Source of the DNA: a virus
Reading direction: 5' to 3' (one strand)
Virus record (IMG/VR): IMGVR_UViG_3300029908_000098
Coordinates: 1 to 33,684 of that record
Length of the DNA stretch: 33,684 nucleotides
The notes beneath the pieces are model-generated. The model saw only the letters and a program-made list of their open reading frames with translations. It had not been told where the DNA came from and ran no database searches. The position numbers and the translations under genes are program-made. Below are positions 7,798 to 33,684 of the stretch, one piece after another. The first letter of the stretch is position 1; each line of letters starts with the position of its first letter.

Positions 7798-9267
7798 TTA
7801 TTTCGTTGATGTTGATGTTGATGTTGATGTTGATGTTGATGTTGATGTTGATGTTGATGTTGAAGCAGGAGTTGAAGCTGGTGTTGAAGCAGTTACAGGT
7901 GTTGGTGTAGCGGCGGCGCCCGGCGCAGTTGGGAAATGACTTGGAAATATAACCGCCCGATCTGCTTGTGTTAGCTGATACAAATCTGTTGGTTCCGGCA
8001 TCAACGCGGCTGGCGGCATCAACACTAGATTAGCGTGTGTTCCGTGATCATCAAAAATAAACTCAACGTCCGCAATAACCCAGTTTACGTTTGTCACGTG
8101 CAGCGTTGGAATCGAAACTGGGATCAATGTATTGATTTCCCACAGTTTGCCGGTTATGTCTCGCCAGGAATCAGTTAACACGTGTATAGATTGTGAGCGC
8201 CCTGCCCGCCGCGCGGCTTCCCATTTTGCGCGCAACATTACGATATCAATACCTTTTGGAGTAATGCGGCTGTCGGCAACTAACCATCGCGGACGATATG
8301 TTGTTGTACCTGGCTGCGCCGGAACATCAGTCGGATTACACGAGCCACCTGCATCAAATGCATGATCTACGACAACTTGTGACGGATCAACCGGTGCATA
8401 TCCACCACCGACAATTTGCGCTGGCATATCCATATTGAGATAATAATAATGCGAAAATCGTTGTGAAATATCGAAGATAGCCGCTGCTTCTTCGACGTTT
8501 ACAGTTTCTTTTACGCCGGATTTGTGAGTTGTCGTGCCGATTTTTGACATAATAACTTTGCCGTCCGGTGATTCGTAAACGAGCATCCCGGCATATTGCG
8601 CGGCTTCCGATATATGCGCCCACGGCGTATCACCGAGTTTGACTTGCACCGCGATTGCATCAATAGTAACGTCACCGGTTGGTTGCAACAACGAGATACC
8701 AAACGGCGCGATCAACGGTAGTATAAATCGCGACAACGTCTGTGCTTGAATCTGAAACATCTGATTACGGAGATCGCTTGCACAATCGACTAATCGTGAG
8801 CATAAACCACGGCCAACTATAGATACGTTGTGAGAATGCGAATTGAAACTCGGATTATACGAATCAATTTTCCCGGACAACACCAAGTCTTTTCCGAAAT
8901 AAATCGAACAATTAGCACCCGGTGCTATCTTCGGAAACTGTCCGCCAGGATATTTTTCCGAAGCAGAAAACGCAAAAACACTCGGAAATGATTCCAGAGA
9001 TCGTGACACTTGCACTGATGTCCAGCCTGTGTACGACGTGTTACCAACGGTCAACGTAACAGTGTTATCAAATTTCTTCGGCGGAGTATTCGGTTGATTA
9101 GAATTTGAATTAGAATTATCCGTTGTAGCTGTGCTGCTTGGCGTTGACGTATTCGAATTGTTTTGAGGCGGCGTAGAATTTCTATTCAGAACTGATTGCG
9201 CCGTTGCAGTATCACCTTGCGCAACTGAGTAGTTAAACGTCGCCGTATCAATTGCGTCCATCGCCAT
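7798..9267 (-). CDS. Baseplate hub protein (Mu gp44/gpP family)
   Basis: The start is the ATG at 9267, overlapping a seven-codon leader (TAATG). An ORF to 9390 exists, but its extra 41 residues lie over the end of the upstream gene. An ATG two codons later is also possible. The 489-residue product has a Ser/Asn/Pro-rich linker at about residues 28-60, then the gp44-like core: NTVTLTVGNTSYTGWTSVQV, FAFSASEKYPGGQFPKI, GTVGRGLCSRLVDCAS-type turns, and TPWAHISEAAQYAGMLVYES near residue 215. It ends with alternating Ser and Thr from a DNA repeat. Hub proteins of this family sit above the spike and bind the tape measure. The long Ser/Thr tail is unusual. Confidence 0.9.
   Translation of the reverse strand: MAMDAIDTATFNYSVAQGDTATAQSVLNRNSTPPQNNSNTSTPSSTATTDNSNSNSNQPNTPPKKFDNTVTLTVGNTSYTGWTSVQVSRSLESFPSVFAFSASEKYPGGQFPKIAPGANCSIYFGKDLVLSGKIDSYNPSFNSHSHNVSIVGRGLCSRLVDCASDLRNQMFQIQAQTLSRFILPLIAPFGISLLQPTGDVTIDAIAVQVKLGDTPWAHISEAAQYAGMLVYESPDGKVIMSKIGTTTHKSGVKETVNVEEAAAIFDISQRFSHYYYLNMDMPAQIVGGGYAPVDPSQVVVDHAFDAGGSCNPTDVPAQPGTTTYRPRWLVADSRITPKGIDIVMLRAKWEAARRAGRSQSIHVLTDSWRDITGKLWEINTLIPVSIPTLHVTNVNWVIADVEFIFDDHGTHANLVLMPPAALMPEPTDLYQLTQADRAVIFPSHFPTAPGAAATPTPVTASTPASTPASTSTSTSTSTSTSTSTSTSTK
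7805..7858 (-). repeat. Nine copies of a hexanucleotide (gttgat)
   Basis: Nine uninterrupted copies of gttgat on the plus strand encode a Ser-Thr run at the hub protein C-terminus, followed upstream by related gttgaa units that encode Ala/Pro-containing variants. Copy-number changes would alter length by two residues without a frameshift. Confidence 0.95.
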
Positions 9268-9290
9268 TAAAAAATTACTCTCACTCTCAT
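9267..9290 (-). CDS. Seven-codon leader peptide before the hub gene
   Basis: ATG at 9290 begins MRVRVIF and stops in a TAA that overlaps the hub ATG (TAATG). The ATG lies exactly four bases after the TATATT of an upstream promoter-like motif. It may be translated leaderlessly and pass ribosomes to the hub gene. Whether it is really translated is an inference from this geometry. Confidence 0.35.
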   Translation of the reverse strand: MRVRVIF

Positions 9291-9293
9291 GAA

Positions 9294-9320
9294 TAATATA
9301 GTCTCGTGCGTTGGAACTAC
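9294..9320 (-). promoter_or_regulatory. Bipartite late-promoter-like motif before the hub gene
   Basis: Read leftward: GTAGTTCCAAC, 8 bases (GCACGAGA), CTATATTA, then TTC and ATG. It matches copies at 15911-15937 and 24670-24696 in both boxes and spacing. It overlaps the last codons of the gpN-like gene, so it is not just intergenic filler. I infer a phage promoter. Confidence 0.65.
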
Positions 9321-10552
9321 GTAGACGACGGTGGATTTTGATACTGCGTAAACGCTGGGTGATACGCTGTTTGAGATACGTCTTGCACACGGTTTATATC
9401 ACGATACAACCGGAATGCTAAAACTAACCCCGGTGAACTATTGACCGGAGCAACTGACAAATATCTAACAACGGGCGCCGCCAAACCTTGTTGCACGAGG
9501 CTTTCAACTAATGTTGCGCGCAACTGTTTTAGAGCAGCATACGACAGGTCGTCTCCTGCATCACCAGCGAGAGTAATCTCAGTGTCAATAATCGGTGTAA
9601 CCGTTGCAATCAGATTCGTTGCATCTGTCCACGAGTCTACACGATACTCACTAACTGCTACCGCAAGTTCCGCAATAGCTGATCTACGCAATGCTGTTGC
9701 AACGGCTACAGAAACTATATCCGTAGCCGTCGATTGGAATTGCGCTAACGTTGAGAGAGATATTACGGCGGATGCTGGGTCAACAAACGTAGCACTAATC
9801 GCCACAGTATAAGCTGTTATTGTATCTGGATTTGTCGGGTCGATAGCAGATGCTGCTACAGCGACAGTATGCAAACATTGTTGATAAGCCTGCAAAGCAG
9901 AGGTTTCGTCGGTATATTGTGAATACGTTTGCGCTTTAGATGTGACGTAACCGTAGTCAGTCGATTTGTCAGGAGATGCTAACGATGCAACTGCACCGAA
10001 TATACCTGATGCTGAACCTATGAGACTTTGTACAACGTTTTTGAACAGCATCACCTGAGATATCGCGGAACGTACGAAGCCGTAGACTGATAGTACTGGT
10101 GACAACACGGATGCAATCGTTGCGCGAACGTTGTTGATTTTATCAAGTAGACTCTGTTTTGCGTCTGCGACCGTTGTCGGATACAATAACACCGTTGTTT
10201 CTAAGAATACTGCACGAAACGAGATTGCGCCAACTCGGTCGAAAGATTCTTCTGACTCGAATGAAACACATGATGCTGTTTTTGTGCCAAGCGCCGGATG
10301 GATGAATGTACCTGGACCGGGTTTGTTAACTGCTGAAATCAGAGTTGTTAACGCTGCAAATGAGTAATTACACGCGAGATATCCCGTGATAGAATACGCT
10401 GTCATGCCTTGGCCGAGGTCTTCGACGTAAATTGTGTCACGATTTGGATATTCATGTACCGCGGTTCTGCGGCCAGTTTTGATCGAACATTGTTGTACGT
10501 TGAACGAGATACCGTTAAACGACGCCGGCAACAATGTGTACAGAATGTTCAT
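9317..10552 (-). CDS. DNA circularisation/tail hub protein (Mu gpN family)
   Basis: A 411-residue protein. The N-terminal 100 residues are the DNA_circ_N pattern: ASFNGISFNVQQCSIKTGRR, EYPNRDTIYVEDLGQGMTAY, ITGYLACNYSFAALTTLISA, then PGPGTFIHPALGTKTASC. The remainder is helical and less conserved (RALRRS-type segments, AIAELAVAVSEYRVDSWTDA). Mu gpN, despite the family name, is a tail component lying between the tape measure and gp44 hub. Its start overlaps the tape-measure stop (TAATG) and its order in the window fits. Confidence 0.9.
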   Translation of the reverse strand: MNILYTLLPASFNGISFNVQQCSIKTGRRTAVHEYPNRDTIYVEDLGQGMTAYSITGYLACNYSFAALTTLISAVNKPGPGTFIHPALGTKTASCVSFESEESFDRVGAISFRAVFLETTVLLYPTTVADAKQSLLDKINNVRATIASVLSPVLSVYGFVRSAISQVMLFKNVVQSLIGSASGIFGAVASLASPDKSTDYGYVTSKAQTYSQYTDETSALQAYQQCLHTVAVAASAIDPTNPDTITAYTVAISATFVDPASAVISLSTLAQFQSTATDIVSVAVATALRRSAIAELAVAVSEYRVDSWTDATNLIATVTPIIDTEITLAGDAGDDLSYAALKQLRATLVESLVQQGLAAPVVRYLSVAPVNSSPGLVLAFRLYRDINRVQDVSQTAYHPAFTQYQNPPSST

Positions 10553-12015
10553 TATTTCGATGCCTGGGCAAATGTCGGCGCTACGTTTTGTTTAACGTTG
10601 ACACGACCTGTGTTAGATGTTGTTGCGATTTTTGAGTTTGGAGCGTCGCTTGTGTGTGTTATTGTGACTTGCACCGGTTGTTGCTGAATCAGCGGGAGTG
10701 CGCGTTGTGTATTAGCAATTCGCGGTGTATCGCTATCTCCGGATCGCTCAAAGTTTTTATTATAAACCCTGGCTTTCTCCGCACCTGATTTTGTATGATC
10801 GCGTAACGCACGTTCTGTTTCAGCATAATCAGGATTTAATGCTAACTCACGGATAGAAAACGCTATTTGTTCATCCGGTGATGATTGTTCCATTCGATGT
10901 CCGTACACCGATTGAAATTGTCGCTGCCGGGTTGGGTCCCACTGCGCAAGTCCAACATGTTGCGTGCCAATTCCGGATAAATGATTTAGACTAGATTCTT
11001 GTGACCAGTTTCCGATTACTGCAGCAATTGCATTGTCATCATAACCCGCTTTTCTATACGCATCGGTGATTTTCTGTCTTGTTTCCGCTGCCATCGCGGG
11101 CGTAAAGTTTCCGTTGGGATTACCACCGCCGTTTGGATTATCCCCGCCCGGATACCCAGCGCCGGAGCCTGCTCCACCCCCGCCGAACAATTGTTTGATG
11201 CTATCAATCAATGTGTCGAGTTTATGACTGAGCCACCCGCCGTCTGTTGCACCGTTGTTGTTATTGTCATTACCGGGCACGTTTGCGAACGGGTCCATAT
11301 CGGCTTTGCGTTGTGCCGCGGTTTTTGCGCGCTCTTTTTCGAGAAATTCTTTTTCGCCGACGTTAGTTGCACTCGGATGCATTATAGCTGCTGCAACTCC
11401 CACAGGACCGGCAAGCCTCGCGGCAGCGGCAGCGGCAGCGGCGGCTACCCCACCACCAGCGGCGGTTGCCGCAGCACCGGCCTCAGCACCAGCGGCGGCA
11501 GCAGTGATACCGAGTTTTGCTAGCGTCGCGCCGAGGAGCCCAAAGCCGATTCGCATTGCTACAAACGACGCCGACAATCCGCCCAGAATCGCAACTAACG
11601 GATTATCAGCGGCGGTATCTGTGAGCCAAAGTCCAAGTTCCGTTAGTTTGTGCTTCATCGGCTCAATATAAGTCGAGATTTTAACCTGTAGATTATGCAG
11701 CGCCGCGTCTAACTCAGTAGCGTCGCGTTGACTCTCTTCAGATGCTGATTGATCTTCTTTCGTAACAGGATGTACTTTGATCGCATCGGCTTTCTGTTTT
11801 AGTCCTTTACCACCGGATTTAATCATGTCCGGAACCATTTCGCGATCAACACCGAATTTCTCTAGAAAATCAGCAAGTAACTCAGCAGGAACGCCTTCGC
11901 TGCCTTTCTTTTTCGCAAAATCCCCAAGCATTTCCATTATTTGTTCAGAGTTTTTGCCCGCAAAATTCAGTCCAGCGGCTTTTGCTGCGCCTTGTTGTTC
12001 GACGGTGTCAGGGCG
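10552..12015 (-). CDS. Tape measure protein, C-terminal part with tail lysozyme domain (frame-disrupted)
   Basis: This frame opens after a TAG at 12016-12018. The first ATG is at 11937, giving 461 residues; reading from 12015 adds a segment PDTVEQQGAAKAAGLNFAGK that looks like continuous protein. Its parts are a coiled region (ELLADFLEKFGVDREMVPDM, LNLQVKIS-type helices), two hydrophobic segments (LVAILGGLSASFVAMRIGFGL and an Ala-rich stretch), a Gly/Asn linker, and a phage tail lysozyme domain near residues 265-400 (ITDAYRKAGYDDNAIAAVIG, NWSQESSLNHLSGIGT, HVGLAQWDPTRQRQFQ, Glu in QESS as a likely catalytic residue). It measures the tail and digests peptidoglycan at entry. The N-terminal part is in another frame, so the gene is split. 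A single base change or a sequencing error would explain it. Confidence 0.85.
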   Translation of the reverse strand, partial: RPDTVEQQGAAKAAGLNFAGKNSEQIMEMLGDFAKKKGSEGVPAELLADFLEKFGVDREMVPDMIKSGGKGLKQKADAIKVHPVTKEDQSASEESQRDATELDAALHNLQVKISTYIEPMKHKLTELGLWLTDTAADNPLVAILGGLSASFVAMRIGFGLLGATLAKLGITAAAAGAEAGAAATAAGGGVAAAAAAAAARLAGPVGVAAAIMHPSATNVGEKEFLEKERAKTAAQRKADMDPFANVPGNDNNNNGATDGGWLSHKLDTLIDSIKQLFGGGGAGSGAGYPGGDNPNGGGNPNGNFTPAMAAETRQKITDAYRKAGYDDNAIAAVIGNWSQESSLNHLSGIGTQHVGLAQWDPTRQRQFQSVYGHRMEQSSPDEQIAFSIRELALNPDYAETERALRDHTKSGAEKARVYNKNFERSGDSDTPRIANTQRALPLIQQQPVQVTITHTSDAPNSKIATTSNTGRVNVKQNVAPTFAQASK

Positions 12016-12452
12016 CTATGTATTGCCATCCGTTGCCGGATTTTCTCAACACCGGCGATTGATTTTGCGTATGCGTCACCAACGCCGATTGCCGCGCCAG
12101 CGGTTTTGTATCGCTGTAGCGCGGTCGTACTAGTATTTGCAAACACCGCTTGACGCTGAAGGCTTAGATTGAGTTCGGCGGTTGCCCGAGCCATCGCTAC
12201 AAGCCCGGCAACGCTTCCGACGCTAGCAAGGACGCCGGCCGGTCCAAACGTCTTTGTGAGACTCCCAAATGCGCTGCTGGCCGTGCTTCCGAGCTTCGAT
12301 AGATTCGCTTCTAGCTTGCCGAGTTGTGAGACATTTTTGCCGGCAGCGTTGGTTGTTTTTCCGAAGCCCGACATCGCTTCGTTGATTTTTTTTAACCGAG
12401 ATGTTGCATTATCAGTTACACTAACAACTACTTTCGTTGAGCCATTTGCCAT
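11967..12452 (-). CDS. Tape measure protein, N-terminal part (frame-disrupted)
   Basis: A 161-residue ORF from ATG 12452. It reads MANGSTKVVVSVTDNATSRL then KKINEAMSGFGKTTNAAGKN, LGKLEANLSKLG, a hydrophobic helix (GPAGVLASVGSVAGLVAMARA), and AVFANTSTTALQRYKTAGAA, the standard start of Mu-like tape measures. About 15 residues before its stop, the sequence stops looking like protein (after IRQRMAIHS) while the -1 frame becomes protein-like. The two parts together would be about 634 residues, the expected size for a tape measure of this type. Without joining, the tail would lack its C-terminal hub-binding part. Confidence 0.85.
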   Translation of the reverse strand: MANGSTKVVVSVTDNATSRLKKINEAMSGFGKTTNAAGKNVSQLGKLEANLSKLGSTASSAFGSLTKTFGPAGVLASVGSVAGLVAMARATAELNLSLQRQAVFANTSTTALQRYKTAGAAIGVGDAYAKSIAGVEKIRQRMAIHSALTPSNNKAQQKPLD

Positions 12453-12462
12453 TTATTTGTTC

Positions 12463-12627
12463 TCAACTAGCTAGTAAATTTCGTTGTTCTTTTGCGATGC
12501 GGTGCGCTTGATTATACCACCACAGTATTTCTGATCCAGAGAGTTTGTAACATTCCGTTGGTGACCAGTGGTATAAAAATGCGAGATCAGCTATACGCTC
12601 TCGCCAGTCATAACACCAACGGTTCAC
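12463..12627 (-). CDS. P2 GpE-like tail chaperone, -1 frame extension
   Basis: This 54-residue frame begins with GTG at 12627, which overlaps the chaperone stop (ATGTGA), and ends just before the tape-measure start. It can also be entered from the chaperone gene by a -1 shift: the frame is open from 12665. The sequence RERIADLAFLYHWSPTECYK, then LSGSEILWWYNQAHRIAKEQ, has the GpE pattern (I-A-x-L-x-x-x-H-W-x-P, then a helix LxxLxxWxxxA). In P2-like and Mu-like tails the corresponding protein is made as a frameshift fusion with the preceding chaperone and is needed for tail assembly. The missing conventional start, the tight overlap and its position between chaperone and tape measure all fit. 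Whether the GTG or the frameshift is used is open. Confidence 0.75.
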   Translation of the reverse strand: MNRWCYDWRERIADLAFLYHWSPTECYKLSGSEILWWYNQAHRIAKEQRNLLAS

Positions 12628-13124
12628 ATAAAATCCGCGAGAAAATCCATGGCATCTGTATAATCAGCAATTGATAACGCTTCGACGGCTTCGAGACAGG
12701 TACCAGATACTAACTCGATTAGTTTCACGCCTTGTAGATACGTATCAGTTGCTTTTCGCGATTTTAGGAAATCGCCGGCACATGGCTCTTCAAGTGTGAT
12801 CTGTGTATAACGATTTCCGCCGGTATTCACTGTCTTAGTTAGTGAATACGTTATTTGCTCTAGATTCTTCTCACGTTTTGAGTTTGTATTACAAACAACA
12901 GCGATCCATGCAGTAATTTTTTTGAAATCACTAAAAGCGAGCTTTTCGACTAACAGTAGATGCACGCCGGACAACAGACTGATCATAACAGCATCAATAT
13001 TGTCCTCGGTTTTTCGCGCTTGTAGCAAATCACCGACTGTCGGTTGTCTCAAAGTGATTTCAGAGACAACCGAACCATCGGACTTTTTCAACGGACGTTT
13101 TAGTGTAAACGTTTTCTCAGTCAT
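12624..13124 (-). CDS. Tail assembly chaperone (Mu gp41 family), internally duplicated
   Basis: The ATG at 13124 gives 166 residues; an ORF to 13211 merely covers the tube gene end. Two homologous halves align: residues 4-70 (FTLKRPLKKSDGSVVSEITL, RQPTVGDLLQARKTED) and about 98-166 (ITYSLTKTVNTGGNRYTQIT, LEEPCAGDFLKSRKATD), each ending in a helix before the next unit (AFSDFKKITAWI versus SIADYTDAMDFLADF). Each half matches the PF10109-type gp41 chaperone family (ITL-x-x-P-x-x-G-D-x-L-x-x-RK). Family members normally carry one copy. It starts two bases after the tube stop, and is followed by the -1 frame GpE-like ORF, so it probably acts as the G-type partner on the tape measure. Confidence 0.8.
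   Translation of the reverse strand: MTEKTFTLKRPLKKSDGSVVSEITLRQPTVGDLLQARKTEDNIDAVMISLLSGVHLLLVEKLAFSDFKKITAWIAVVCNTNSKREKNLEQITYSLTKTVNTGGNRYTQITLEEPCAGDFLKSRKATDTYLQGVKLIELVSGTCLEAVEALSIADYTDAMDFLADFM
12627..12648 (-). other. Candidate -1 frameshift window
   Basis: Read leftward, the chaperone end has two GGATTTT runs (12648-12642 and 12636-12630), the second followed by ATG TGA. A shift of -1 anywhere in this window before the TGA joins the chaperone to the GpE-like frame. Neither site is a perfect X-XXY-YYZ heptamer, so a slip on the T-run is my best candidate. No clear downstream stem was found by eye. Confidence 0.4.
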
Positions 13125-13554: not shown

Positions 13555-15114
13555 CTAACTTTTATTGAACTTAACAAGTACCGCAACACCGCGTAGCTGA
13601 TTGCAGAGATCGGGCGGCAACAGAACTGCCAGGAAACCATTCCCGCGATTTTCAACTGCGATCTGCGGGCATACAATGTCGCCATTCTGTACGATGCCGA
13701 TACCTTCATAATATCTGTAACGTTGGATAACACTGAGTCTAACGAGATTCGGGGTTACAAATCCCGACATTGATCCGACGATTTTAGTAGCATCGGAAAC
13801 CAGCTTCGAACGTGCAAACGTTGTCGAGAGCCAAGCGCGCAGATCACGGATGATCCATGCAAGAGTTCCCATTGTCTCAACGTCGAGGTAACTACTGTCG
13901 ATTGCGCCAGTCACAGGCTGCGTCTGATACGTTGTCACAACTCTTTCGAGATACACAACGCCATCGTTACCAGCAACATACGTTGACAGACCGTCATACA
14001 GCAGCGTGTTACGATCAGACAGTTGGAAACGATTCTGTATTGGTGGGGCATAAATTCCAATCAACGGAACTTGCGTCACGGGCAATGCAGGATCGGCGCG
14101 CTGTGAGATTGCAACCTGTGCACCGAATGCTGCTGCAATTTCCCAAGTTGGGCTTGGAGTGTCATACATCGGCAGCACAGACATATGCTGATCATCACGT
14201 CCAACACCGAACGTAGTAACCGTTCCGAGTGTGCCTTTGATAGCAGCGAAACCGTGACCAAATAGCGACTGAGACCATGCCCAACGGCCACTCGTGTCAT
14301 TCAAAAGATTCTGAATAGCATTGAGCGATGTAGTGTCGTTGTAAGGCACAATGATAAAATCGTAAGTTTGTGCACCGAGATTTGCAAGAGCAGTTGTTAG
14401 AGATGGATTAACAGTGCCGCCAGTGAATCCGGTTACGGTTGCTGCAATGCCTACGGGAGCGACTTCACCAGCCGGTGCGCCGCCGTAGTTTAGACGGAGA
14501 TGAGTGTCGTTACCTACGATGCAGCCGTGTAGATATTTGAAAACGATCGGAGTAGCGCTAGCGATTGTTGCAGTTGATGCATCAGTGCAAAGCAGCGGTG
14601 TCGTTGTGTTTGTCAACGCTAACTGCTTAGTTCCGATCCACACCGTCACTTGCAACGTCTGCTGACACAACGCTTTGCAGACGTTAGTAGCAACGATCAC
14701 GTCGGTATCACCAACGGAAACACCAACCGGAAAACGATCGCCGGCTACGTATAGTGCAAATGTTCCGGCTACTGTTGCAGTGCCGAGGAACGAAACGTTA
14801 GCGCTAGCTTTCGTTGATCCAGAGTCATCGGCTAACGGCAGTTCCCACAGTTCGCCGAAAGTGTCATTTTGCTGATACGTTGCAACCATGTCCGCGAGCA
14901 TTGAGCCGTTGCCGTAAATTGCAGCAGCGTTTGCGGGACCGTTGGAAATCACAGGGACGTTCGGAACACCGGTTAGACCAGTAGTACCGAGCATCTGACC
15001 GATGATCAACGTGCGATACTGAGCCTGCACGGTGTTACCATTGCTGTTGTTTACTTCTGCGTAGACGCCAGGAACACGATTTGTGAAACTGTAATGTTGG
15101 AACTGGATAGTCAT
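13555..15114 (-). CDS. Tail sheath protein (Mu gpL family)
   Basis: A 519-residue protein. Typical of Mu gpL sheaths are the N-terminus (FTNRVPGVYAEVNNSNGNTV, then AQYRTLIIGQMLGTTGLTG), the MLADMVATYQQNDTFGELWE segment and the C-terminal domain (YEGIGIVQNGDIVCPQIAVE, then NRGNGFLAVLLPPDLCNQLR). The long central insertion is common in Mu-like sheaths. The ATG at 15114 has AAGGACAA upstream. It contracts to drive the tube through the envelope. Its presence with the tube proves a myovirus-type tail. Confidence 0.95.
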   Translation of the reverse strand: MTIQFQHYSFTNRVPGVYAEVNNSNGNTVQAQYRTLIIGQMLGTTGLTGVPNVPVISNGPANAAAIYGNGSMLADMVATYQQNDTFGELWELPLADDSGSTKASANVSFLGTATVAGTFALYVAGDRFPVGVSVGDTDVIVATNVCKALCQQTLQVTVWIGTKQLALTNTTTPLLCTDASTATIASATPIVFKYLHGCIVGNDTHLRLNYGGAPAGEVAPVGIAATVTGFTGGTVNPSLTTALANLGAQTYDFIIVPYNDTTSLNAIQNLLNDTSGRWAWSQSLFGHGFAAIKGTLGTVTTFGVGRDDQHMSVLPMYDTPSPTWEIAAAFGAQVAISQRADPALPVTQVPLIGIYAPPIQNRFQLSDRNTLLYDGLSTYVAGNDGVVYLERVVTTYQTQPVTGAIDSSYLDVETMGTLAWIIRDLRAWLSTTFARSKLVSDATKIVGSMSGFVTPNLVRLSVIQRYRYYEGIGIVQNGDIVCPQIAVENRGNGFLAVLLPPDLCNQLRGVAVLVKFNKS

Positions 15115-16435: not shown

Positions 16436-16797
16436 TGAGATTCTAACGTAGTTTCGACTACAAGAAATCTATGCAACTGTTCTATGTCCATAATGCGATT
16501 TATTTTATAGTTCTCTGTTATCGTCGAACCATTCGGCAACCTGATAGTTCTTGTGATGCCGCATTGTAGATCAATGTTCGCAACATAACGGAAACTAAAT
16601 TTGTGACTGTAGACATTGATTCCGAGTTGAATCTGATTCAACATTACGATCGGACCCGGTTGTTCGATTTTTGCGCGAGTCTGTGCAATCGTCGTCAGAG
16701 TTTCGGTTAACGTTCCGTCCGACGCTGGCGACTGTGTTATTTTGACAATCGTTATCGGATGGCGGAGTTCGCCGATGCTTGGAAATTTATCTGCCAT
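16432..16797 (-). CDS. Head closure protein (phage head-tail adaptor family)
   Basis: A 121-residue protein. The pattern IGELRHPITIVKITQSPASD, then TLTTIAQTRAKIEQ, and a late GSTITENYKINRIMD and FLVVETTLESQ is the head-tail joining (SPP1 gp16-like) family. It follows the gp6-like connector with a ten-base overlap and precedes the gp10-like gene, the usual order. It closes the portal channel after packaging. Confidence 0.82.
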   Translation of the reverse strand: MADKFPSIGELRHPITIVKITQSPASDGTLTETLTTIAQTRAKIEQPGPIVMLNQIQLGINVYSHKFSFRYVANIDLQCGITRTIRLPNGSTITENYKINRIMDIEQLHRFLVVETTLESQ

Positions 16798-17338
16798 CTG
16801 CGGAGATACTTCCGAAACTCGGGATTTTGAATGGACGAATGAGTTGCATCACAACGGCGGGAATCTCTGAAGAACTATGAACGATCTGATCATTTGTCGA
16901 GAATGCAAACTGATTGAAGATGATTGCGCTAGGCGTTGAGAGAGTATCAACATTATAATCTGTTGCAGAATTTAGCGTTGTTGATGTTCCGTAGTACTGA
17001 TGGTTTATGACGATACTTGAAACGGATTGTAGTGGAGAACGTGCGAGATTCATTCTGCGGAGCAGTGGCTGAAAGTTTGCCCATAGCGGCAGCACCGGGA
17101 TCGCGCCATTTGTTAACGGGACGCTGTTCAACGGATCGGGCGTACTAGTTGATACCATTTGATACGATGCAGTGATAAAAGCACGATTGCAGATAGTTTC
17201 GAGATATGATGTTGCCGCTTCGACGTAAGTGCTGATTATCTCATTATCCGTCGTGTTATCAACATAGAGATGCTGTGCGACTCTCGCAAGACTTACAGCA
17301 TAATTGGTTGGTGGAGTTACGAGATAATTTGCAATCAT
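16787..17338 (-). CDS. Head-tail connector protein (HK97 gp6-like)
   Basis: A 183-residue protein. VSLARVAQHLYVDNTTDNEI, then ISTYVEAATSYLETICNRAF matches the gp6-like connector, which begins with three helices. PLQSVSSIVINHQYYG and MQLIRPFKIPSFGSI lie in the middle and end. A gp6 ring sits between portal and closure protein. The start overlaps the upstream stop (TAATG). Confidence 0.85.
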   Translation of the reverse strand: MIANYLVTPPTNYAVSLARVAQHLYVDNTTDNEIISTYVEAATSYLETICNRAFITASYQMVSTSTPDPLNSVPLTNGAIPVLPLWANFQPLLRRMNLARSPLQSVSSIVINHQYYGTSTTLNSATDYNVDTLSTPSAIIFNQFAFSTNDQIVHSSSEIPAVVMQLIRPFKIPSFGSISADGR

Positions 17339-21781: not shown

Positions 21782-23473
21782 TTAAAATACAAAAATCGTT
21801 CGCTTTGGTTTTTCTGCGAATCCGTATTCAATCGCAAGCGCCATTGCTATAATAGTTGCAACTGCAAGATCAATCTTATTCGATGGCACTGATTTTCTCG
21901 GAAACCAGTTTGCGTTACGATCTTCAACGAAACCGACGTTTGACATACACCAGTCGAGAATCGGATTATTGTGATGCAACCTTCCTTGTAACGTCAGCGA
22001 AAGAATAGCTTTCATGGGTTCTGATAAACTACGAACGTTCATCGGAACTTCAACCATTTTGATATTTTCAGCAATCATCCGTTGTGCTAGTTGTTGAGCG
22101 TGCCATGGATCATAACCAACGTTTAGCACCTGGAAATCTTTAGAATCCTGTATCAGATCGCTTTCAATCTCTGCAAAATCTGTGACTTCACCGGGTGTAA
22201 CCGTTAGTAAGTTCTGCCGCTCCCAACCTTTGTACTGACTATTACCAGACGTTTGAACGGCTAGTTCCGGTAGATAAGCTGTTGGGAAAATATAGTAATG
22301 GAGCTTACCGTCGATCATCCGTGAGAATATTTTGATTTTAGCAGCAATATCAGACCGTGTTGCTAAGTCTAATCCGATGTAGCATTGTTGACCTTTGAAT
22401 TGATCTATCGTTAGATTCGGATCATGCATCTGATTCCATTTTGGCATGTCCATCCAGGCACTATCGGCGTTGCACCAGACACAAAGATGTTTGACTAAAA
22501 ACGAGTTTACGGCAGATGGCGTAACTTTAGCTTTCTCGGCAAGCTGTGAAATAACTTCGGGCATAACCATTCGACCGAAACCCGGATTAGCTGCTTTCCA
22601 GACGTTTTCATCTGCAAAGTTTTTTTCTTCACCGTCGGGAGCGCAATAGATAATACCCCACGTCGATTCGTCTATATGTTGTTTTTGAAGGATTTTGGTA
22701 ATATACGTCCGGAGTTCATACGCTAATGATGCCGTGTTAAATCCTGCGGTACCGACTACACACATTAACGAGTTATCACGTTTTGCTGTTCCTGTCTCTA
22801 AACTCTCATAGAGTGTTCGTGTTGGAAATGCCCAACATTCATCAAAAAGACAAAAATGTAAATTTTTACCGTCAGATGTTTTAGCGTCTGCTGATATTGG
22901 ATTAAACCGTGATGCTGTTTTGCGTTGTATTATTGAGTGTGCAAGAATCTCAACGCCTAACGCCTTCATAAATTTTGGCTCACGACGCGCCATTTCAGCA
23001 GCAGCTAACCAACTGATTTTTGCAACATCTCGGCTAGTCCCTGCGGCAACACACTGCGCCCCGCCCTCGCCGTCACATGCCAGCATCCAGAGGCTCAGGA
23101 GCGCGCCCATCGTGCTCTTGGAGTTACCACGCGGTATTTCAAGCAACATGCGGCGGAACCGTCTCTTGCCGTCCCTTTCGCCGCCATCACATAGCCATCC
23201 GAGGACCGAGAACACAAACATCTGCCAGGGCATCAACTCGATGTTCTGTCCGGTCAACGGTCCCTCGAAAATATGGAACGTCTCACAAAATCGGCAGAAT
23301 TTATTCAACGCGGCTTCTGAGAATTTGTATGGGAAACCCGGTGTTGATTGTCTCTGAAGATCGTCTAGATGGCGTTGGCAGCTGAGGATGGTCCATTTTG
23401 ACGCATAGATTTTACCTGATACTATATCACGGCAATATTGTTCGGCTGTTGCTGCATAGTTCTTTTGCGCCAT
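21782..23473 (-). CDS. terL: Terminase large subunit
   Basis: A 563-residue packaging ATPase and nuclease of the type found with P27-family small subunits. Walker A is RGNSKST at 115-121 and Walker B is LFDECW at 209-214 (D211, E212). The nuclease domain begins YIGLDLATRSD (D369), has GYDPWHAQQLAQRM at about 450 and a closing IDLAVATIIAMALAIEYG. The motor drives DNA into the head. Its start overlaps the small-subunit stop. Confidence 0.97.
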   Translation of the reverse strand: MAQKNYAATAEQYCRDIVSGKIYASKWTILSCQRHLDDLQRQSTPGFPYKFSEAALNKFCRFCETFHIFEGPLTGQNIELMPWQMFVFSVLGWLCDGGERDGKRRFRRMLLEIPRGNSKSTMGALLSLWMLACDGEGGAQCVAAGTSRDVAKISWLAAAEMARREPKFMKALGVEILAHSIIQRKTASRFNPISADAKTSDGKNLHFCLFDECWAFPTRTLYESLETGTAKRDNSLMCVVGTAGFNTASLAYELRTYITKILQKQHIDESTWGIIYCAPDGEEKNFADENVWKAANPGFGRMVMPEVISQLAEKAKVTPSAVNSFLVKHLCVWCNADSAWMDMPKWNQMHDPNLTIDQFKGQQCYIGLDLATRSDIAAKIKIFSRMIDGKLHYYIFPTAYLPELAVQTSGNSQYKGWERQNLLTVTPGEVTDFAEIESDLIQDSKDFQVLNVGYDPWHAQQLAQRMIAENIKMVEVPMNVRSLSEPMKAILSLTLQGRLHHNNPILDWCMSNVGFVEDRNANWFPRKSVPSNKIDLAVATIIAMALAIEYGFAEKPKRTIFVF

Positions 23474-32619: not shown

Positions 32620-33684
32620 CTATGCATCTATAATCCGCTCACGTTCCCGCTCAATCCGGGTAACGGTTGCGCCAACGTTCGGTTGAGCCTTGGGCGATAG
32701 TCCCTCCAAGCGTCTCACAGCAGCGTATACCAGATCATCTGTCCATGCTGGATCGTCGATTATTAACGGATATTCCGCCACACCGGTTTCAGTGTTGACG
32801 CCCAAAATCCAAAGCAATTGTCCCTTCCTGACTCCAGCAAAACGGGTTCCGTTTCCGATTTCGACAATGATCAATCCATCAGGTCTAAATCCTACCAGAG
32901 AGACAATAGATCGGATTTCCGCTGCAACCTGGACTCTAGCATCAGGATCATGATCACGCGCACGCTGTATCAACGCTACGGCCACATCAGATGCTAACGT
33001 CTCAGGACGCATCATTGATATAGATCGCGTCCGTTCTGCATCTGATATTTGAGATTTCAGACCAGCTATCAGAGACTTCCCGTCAGCTAAACGATTTAAC
33101 AATGCAGGATCATCATCACCGTTTGCATACAGATCATACAGCCTTCCATGCCGCGTTTCTGCGGACTTCAGATCAGTGATCAGCTTTGATATTTGTTCGT
33201 CCAGTTTTTTGACGTTGGAATCAGGAGACGATAAATCATCACAGAGTATCCTACGCAGTACCGTTAAAGTGATTTCTTCAAACTGTTCGTATGCATAGTT
33301 TCCACCTGTCGGGCAGGATTTTCTGACATACCTGTTATGACATCTGAGATAATGATTCCGTTTATTACGATGACATACGATTTCCATTGTACCGCCGCAA
33401 TCAACACAACGGCATAATCTGGCAAAAAGATTTACAGGCGCCGTTGCGCGCGTCTTCATTCCGGGTGATGCAGAAGACCTGATGGCCATCTGATGCTGCG
33501 CACGCTCCCATAGATCATACGGTATGATCTGAGGGTAATAATCCCGAATTGGTTCACCAGTCGGAACAGGCTTTTTTTCCGTATCATAGTTGCAAAAATA
33601 CAACTGCTTTTCACCGATAACGGAACGGTCAGTTAGGATTTGACGGATGTATGCAGGTGACCATCGCTTTGATCGGCCAAACGA
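32620..33684 (-). CDS. int: Large serine integrase, C-terminal part
   Basis: The frame is open to the right edge, so 355 residues are seen and the catalytic domain lies outside. The visible part begins with the recombinase domain (SKRWSPAYIRQILTDRSVIG, then YYPQIIPYDLWERAQHQM), followed by a zinc ribbon (CRCVDCGG, CHRNKRNHYLRCHNRYVRKS with C), and a coiled-coil segment (KLDEQISKLITDLKSAETRH). The end is a beta region with RFAGVRKGQLLWI. It splices the phage into the host chromosome. The ORF from 33603 begins at an internal TTG and is a shorter version. Being the outermost gene, it suggests an attachment site beyond the right edge. Confidence 0.93.
   Translation of the reverse strand, partial: SFGRSKRWSPAYIRQILTDRSVIGEKQLYFCNYDTEKKPVPTGEPIRDYYPQIIPYDLWERAQHQMAIRSSASPGMKTRATAPVNLFARLCRCVDCGGTMEIVCHRNKRNHYLRCHNRYVRKSCPTGGNYAYEQFEEITLTVLRRILCDDLSSPDSNVKKLDEQISKLITDLKSAETRHGRLYDLYANGDDDPALLNRLADGKSLIAGLKSQISDAERTRSISMMRPETLASDVAVALIQRARDHDPDARVQVAAEIRSIVSLVGFRPDGLIIVEIGNGTRFAGVRKGQLLWILGVNTETGVAEYPLIIDDPAWTDDLVYAAVRRLEGLSPKAQPNVGATVTRIERERERIIDA

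Follow-up and report, generated by a model that had tools for sequence, protein, structure and literature searches.

A conserved tail-assembly frameshift, known from lambda (G/GT) and P2 (E/E'), is expected at the chaperone gene (reviewed in PMC5009743). Frameshifts in tail genes have also been described in damaged prophages, and a frameshift in a tail assembly gene has rendered Salmonella prophage ST64B defective, with no infectious particles (PMC7067206). For the tape measure protein (TMP), deletions within the N-terminal 154 aa abolish infectivity in phage TP901-1, a different phage that serves here as an analogy only, and internal deletions of the same protein are known to yield shorter but formed tails (PMC5099701). 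Here we describe a TMP gene split between two reading frames in a metagenome-derived IMG/VR phage contig (IMGVR_UViG_3300029908_000098), and the whole stretch of 33,684 nt that was analyzed is referred to as the window.

Tail operon and phage type

The structural genes of the window lie on the minus strand in the order terminase, portal, major head protein, connector, sheath, tail tube, tail assembly chaperone, tape measure, baseplate hub, and baseplate wedge. According to profile matches, the TMP gene sits between the tail chaperone gene and a baseplate hub gene of a contractile tail operon, with the hub gene (9317..10552, minus strand, phrog_184) immediately 3′ of it. At the right edge of the window, the gene of an integrase-type serine recombinase, represented by its zinc-ribbon part (32620-33684), is cut off by the end of the contig, and the genome in the window is thus incomplete. 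A recombinase of this kind in that position points to a temperate phage. Beside it, the window shows no host flank, and a search for relatives in GTDB species genomes found none, giving neither a host nor an integrated copy. The phage is unclassified and contractile-tailed, and is probably temperate.

Several other features were observed along the window. Direct repeats near its left end (1592-1980 and 2480-2904) were detected as secondary self-like matches, and their copy number may differ between contigs. Compared to sister contigs, there is an in-frame 9-base indel in the terminase gene (22722-22730) and a 12-base repeat-unit indel (7805-7816) in a baseplate hub gene (7798-9390).

The tail assembly chaperone gene (Phage_TAC_7, E/41/14; 12627..13124, minus strand, profile match) has GGATTTTATGTGA at its end, and a GpE-type extension is found in its -1 frame (12466..12663, minus strand), as indicated by the frames, by GGATTTTATGTGA, and by a match to PF06528 with an E-value of 2.1e-8. 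Judged from these features, it is likely the GpE extension, rather than the TMP split, that represents the programmed frameshift product of this tail operon. The -1 GpE frame is open in the window. By eye, it is open in the sister haplotype as well, where a 4-base indel close to the end does not interrupt it.

Two reading frames of the tape measure gene

The N-terminal part of the TMP gene lies in frame 0 (11967..12452, minus strand) and is an ORF of 161 codons in the ORF list, with an ATG start and matches to phrog_9570 and phrog_2854. The C-terminal part, determined by frame analysis and profile matches, lies in the -1 frame (10552..12015, minus strand) and contains a Phage_lysozyme2 domain (PF18013, E-value 5e-17). 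A TAG (12016..12018, minus strand) closes this downstream frame on its 5′ side, and the two frames, whose relation is -1 or equivalently +2, overlap by about 15 codons (12018-11967). ORF and frame analysis agreed with the original prediction, in which the N-terminal frame ends at 11967 and the lysozyme-bearing frame opens at 12015. Its view that a single gene had been split by a frameshift was also borne out, since both parts match one TMP profile, phrog_9570, in successive order, with the N-terminal part at profile positions 12-150 (E-value 1.6e-4) and the C-terminal part at positions 166-642 (E-value 4e-25).

Compared with the unbroken sister haplotype, the frame switches at 12015..12026 (minus strand) in both DNA and protein alignments. 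The sister haplotype aligns with frame 0 until about 12026 and with the other TMP frame from 12015 on, and about 15 of the 161 codons of the N-terminal part fall outside the ancestral frame. The switch in protein-like character, which had been predicted around 12010-12020, was found between 12027 and 12015 in these alignments. The shift had further been described as one of a single base. While the -1 frame relation stands, the loss of a single base is uncertain, as either -1 or +2 fits and, at the junction, the window is longer than the sister haplotype by two bases.

Relatives with and without the split

IMG/VR queries with either TMP part returned the same six contigs, and a gapped DNA pattern over the TMP junction again found those six and none further. 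The junction of the window is identical in three IMG/VR contigs, from metagenomes 3300029939, 3300031788, and 3300031524, which show 0-1 substitutions relative to the window across the 2.3 kb compared, with differences lying elsewhere. We refer to this allele as haplotype A, for which the assemblies of four metagenomes all have the TMP split as their consensus. In comparison, the unbroken gene that the original prediction had suggested looking for among relatives is present in three sister contigs, from 3300030508, 3300029922, and 3300029953 (haplotype B), as a single TMP gene of 633 codons. TMP is therefore one continuous chain in haplotype B and not in the four haplotype A contigs. In the half of the gene that holds the junction, the haplotype B contigs have 82-88% DNA identity, and the N-terminal part shares 91.5% amino acid identity with the unbroken sister TMP.

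Acetobacter phage phiAP1 also has a single-ORF TMP, of 645 aa, with a lysozyme domain and a match to phrog_9570, and its gene order of sheath, tube, chaperone, TMP, and hub is that of the window. A tblastn search with the TMP C-terminal part and a blastn search with the tail region gave no close relative among 50,697 phage records, and sheath and hub queries in IMG/VR led back to the few contigs already found, without an intermediate outgroup. Since the three sister contigs and phiAP1 carry a single TMP, these comparisons indicate that the split is most likely derived from an ancestral unbroken gene.

The split could also have come from a sequencing or assembly error in the window, given that metagenome consensus sequences of single contigs do contain errors and that an in-frame gap of 105 bases in the connector gene is a further indel seen in the window alone. 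However, the TMP junction is not a homopolymer, and it is identical in three other assemblies that differ elsewhere. The recurrence of this junction in three further metagenomes makes an error in reads or assembly very unlikely, unless all four contigs share raw reads. The original prediction had favored mutation or sequencing error over programmed frameshifting; mutation remains favored and a programmed shift unlikely, but the error part does not agree with a split common to four metagenomes. What appeared to be a frameshift error in one contig proved to be a shared allele, which calibrates such readings.

The connector gap is found in the head-tail connector gene (16787-17338) with its breakpoint near 16879, and is a gap of 35 codons private to the window. 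The missing stretch is retained in contigs of the same haplotype (G002, G003, and L047) and in the sister haplotype, and the gap is possibly a second lesion or an assembly fault.

Related contigs combine both haplotypes. One contig (G001) follows haplotype A as far as 14201 and haplotype B beginning at 14239, whereas two others (G004 and G006) follow B until 13025 and switch to A by 13070. Split and unbroken TMP genes are each found beside both kinds of neighbour, and at least two mosaic backgrounds carry the split allele. The mosaics likely reflect recombination in a mixed population. They may instead be assembly chimeras, as the identical runs at the switch points (13025-13070 and 14201-14239) span only 37-44 bases. 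A recombining mixed population would be odd for a dead relic, and a split shared by four metagenomes and two backgrounds would fit a phage that is still replicating.

Search for recoding signals at the junction

As the original prediction had noted, a classic slippery heptamer is absent, and neither a canonical X XXY YYZ heptamer nor a close variant was found in the TMP overlap (12018-11967). The best re-pairing in the -1 frame of the overlap is a lone A-site AAG to AAA, and no codon pair re-pairs well. Folding of the overlap showed no stimulatory RNA structure beyond shuffled sequences, with a z-score of +0.43 for pseudoknot-free structures. A homopolymer run for slippage is absent from the junction, and the frame overlap itself is absent from haplotype B and phiAP1, both of which are single-frame. 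Programmed frameshifting at the TMP split thus appears unlikely from the sequence features of the overlap. An unusual form of recoding, such as a non-canonical -1 slip, a +2 slip, or transcript slippage, could restore a single TMP chain, and the two frames overlap by about 15 codons and stand in the -1 relation that is typical of bacterial frameshifting. The host ribosome would also support -1 shifting at the upstream chaperone gene, if the predicted E/E' shift is real. Such recoding would nevertheless have to act with no well re-pairing codon pair, homopolymer run, or stable structure, in an overlap that haplotype B and phiAP1 do not have, and we consider it distinctly improbable.

Possible function of the two parts

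The first ATG of the downstream TMP frame (11935..11937, minus strand) has no convincing Shine-Dalgarno sequence, its anti-SD pairing being weak (-2.1 kcal/mol; random median, -1.7). Several true starts of this phage have equally weak SD sequences, and because many of its genuine starts lack a good one, internal initiation within the TMP gene is possible. Between haplotypes, dN/dS was 0.11 for the N-terminal part and 0.08 for the C-terminal part, compared to 0.06-0.08 for the intact neighbours hub, chaperone, tube, and sheath. The C-terminal part has no further stops, and decay is not visible. Low dN/dS in both halves indicates that the lesion is recent relative to the haplotype split or that selection is still acting, the variation among split contigs being too little to separate a recent lesion from continuing selection.

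The split TMP might still function, either in the form of two proteins or by acting as a shortened tape measure, with the C-terminal part made from ATG 11937 or nearby and setting, alone or with the N-terminal stub, a roughly normal or reduced tail length. This would be consistent with low dN/dS in both halves, with an allele common to four contigs and two backgrounds, and with the shorter formed tails of TP901-1 carrying internal TMP deletions (PMC5099701). However, position 11937 lacks a convincing SD sequence and about 26 conserved codons would stay untranslated, while N-terminal TMP deletions abolish infectivity in TP901-1 (PMC5099701) and the relatives use one chain, which makes such an arrangement unlikely.

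Discussion

The preferred explanation, to which we give a probability of roughly two in three, is that a recent small indel, fixed in haplotype A, broke the TMP gene about 142 codons in, and that the phage is probably tail-defective or impaired. A plain indel is supported because the split is real, common to four contigs, derived compared to haplotype B, and without recoding signals, and it ranks above programmed frameshifting, an internal start, and sequencing error. Ribosomes would stop at 11967 to leave a 161-aa stub, and the lysozyme-bearing C-terminal part would be made poorly or not at all, so that haplotype A particles may be tailless, abnormally tailed, or poorly infectious. The split allele could persist via prophage carriage or by recombination with intact relatives. 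The defective prophage of the original prediction is a plausible candidate reading: the frame is broken, but dN/dS is not relaxed, and an integrase-type recombinase lies at the contig edge with no host flank seen.

Some observations speak against a plain inactivating indel, namely dN/dS near that of intact neighbours with no further stops in the C-terminal part, a split assembled as the consensus sequence of four metagenomes and found in two mosaic backgrounds, and the possibility of internal initiation given the many weak genuine SD sequences. There is a slim chance that haplotype A is a viable lineage whose tape measure is shortened or in two pieces, or whose frame is rescued by a non-canonical shift, while the unbroken sister haplotype circulates and recombines with it. 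If haplotype A does prove viable, the case would be relevant to the question of whether tape measures need to be a single chain.

Among known systems, the tail module of Acetobacter phage phiAP1 resembles that of the window in gene order, in a TMP of about 640 aa with a C-terminal tail lysozyme domain, and in phrog_9570, although its TMP is one unbroken ORF and its sheath is only 38% identical. Lambda G/GT and P2 E/E' share the operon region and the -1 relation with the TMP split, and a P2-type E/E' pair lies directly upstream of the TMP gene of the window; in contrast, the TMP split is in another gene, has no slippery sequence at its overlap, and does not occur in the sister haplotype. Salmonella prophage ST64B, which is SfV-like, is likewise temperate and contractile-tailed, with a related sheath at 34% identity, but there the frameshift affects a tail assembly gene and the defect has been demonstrated by experiment, whereas in the window it affects TMP and the tail defect is predicted. 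Since prophages with a frameshifted tail gene, such as ST64B, are already known, the split in haplotype A is ordinary in kind.
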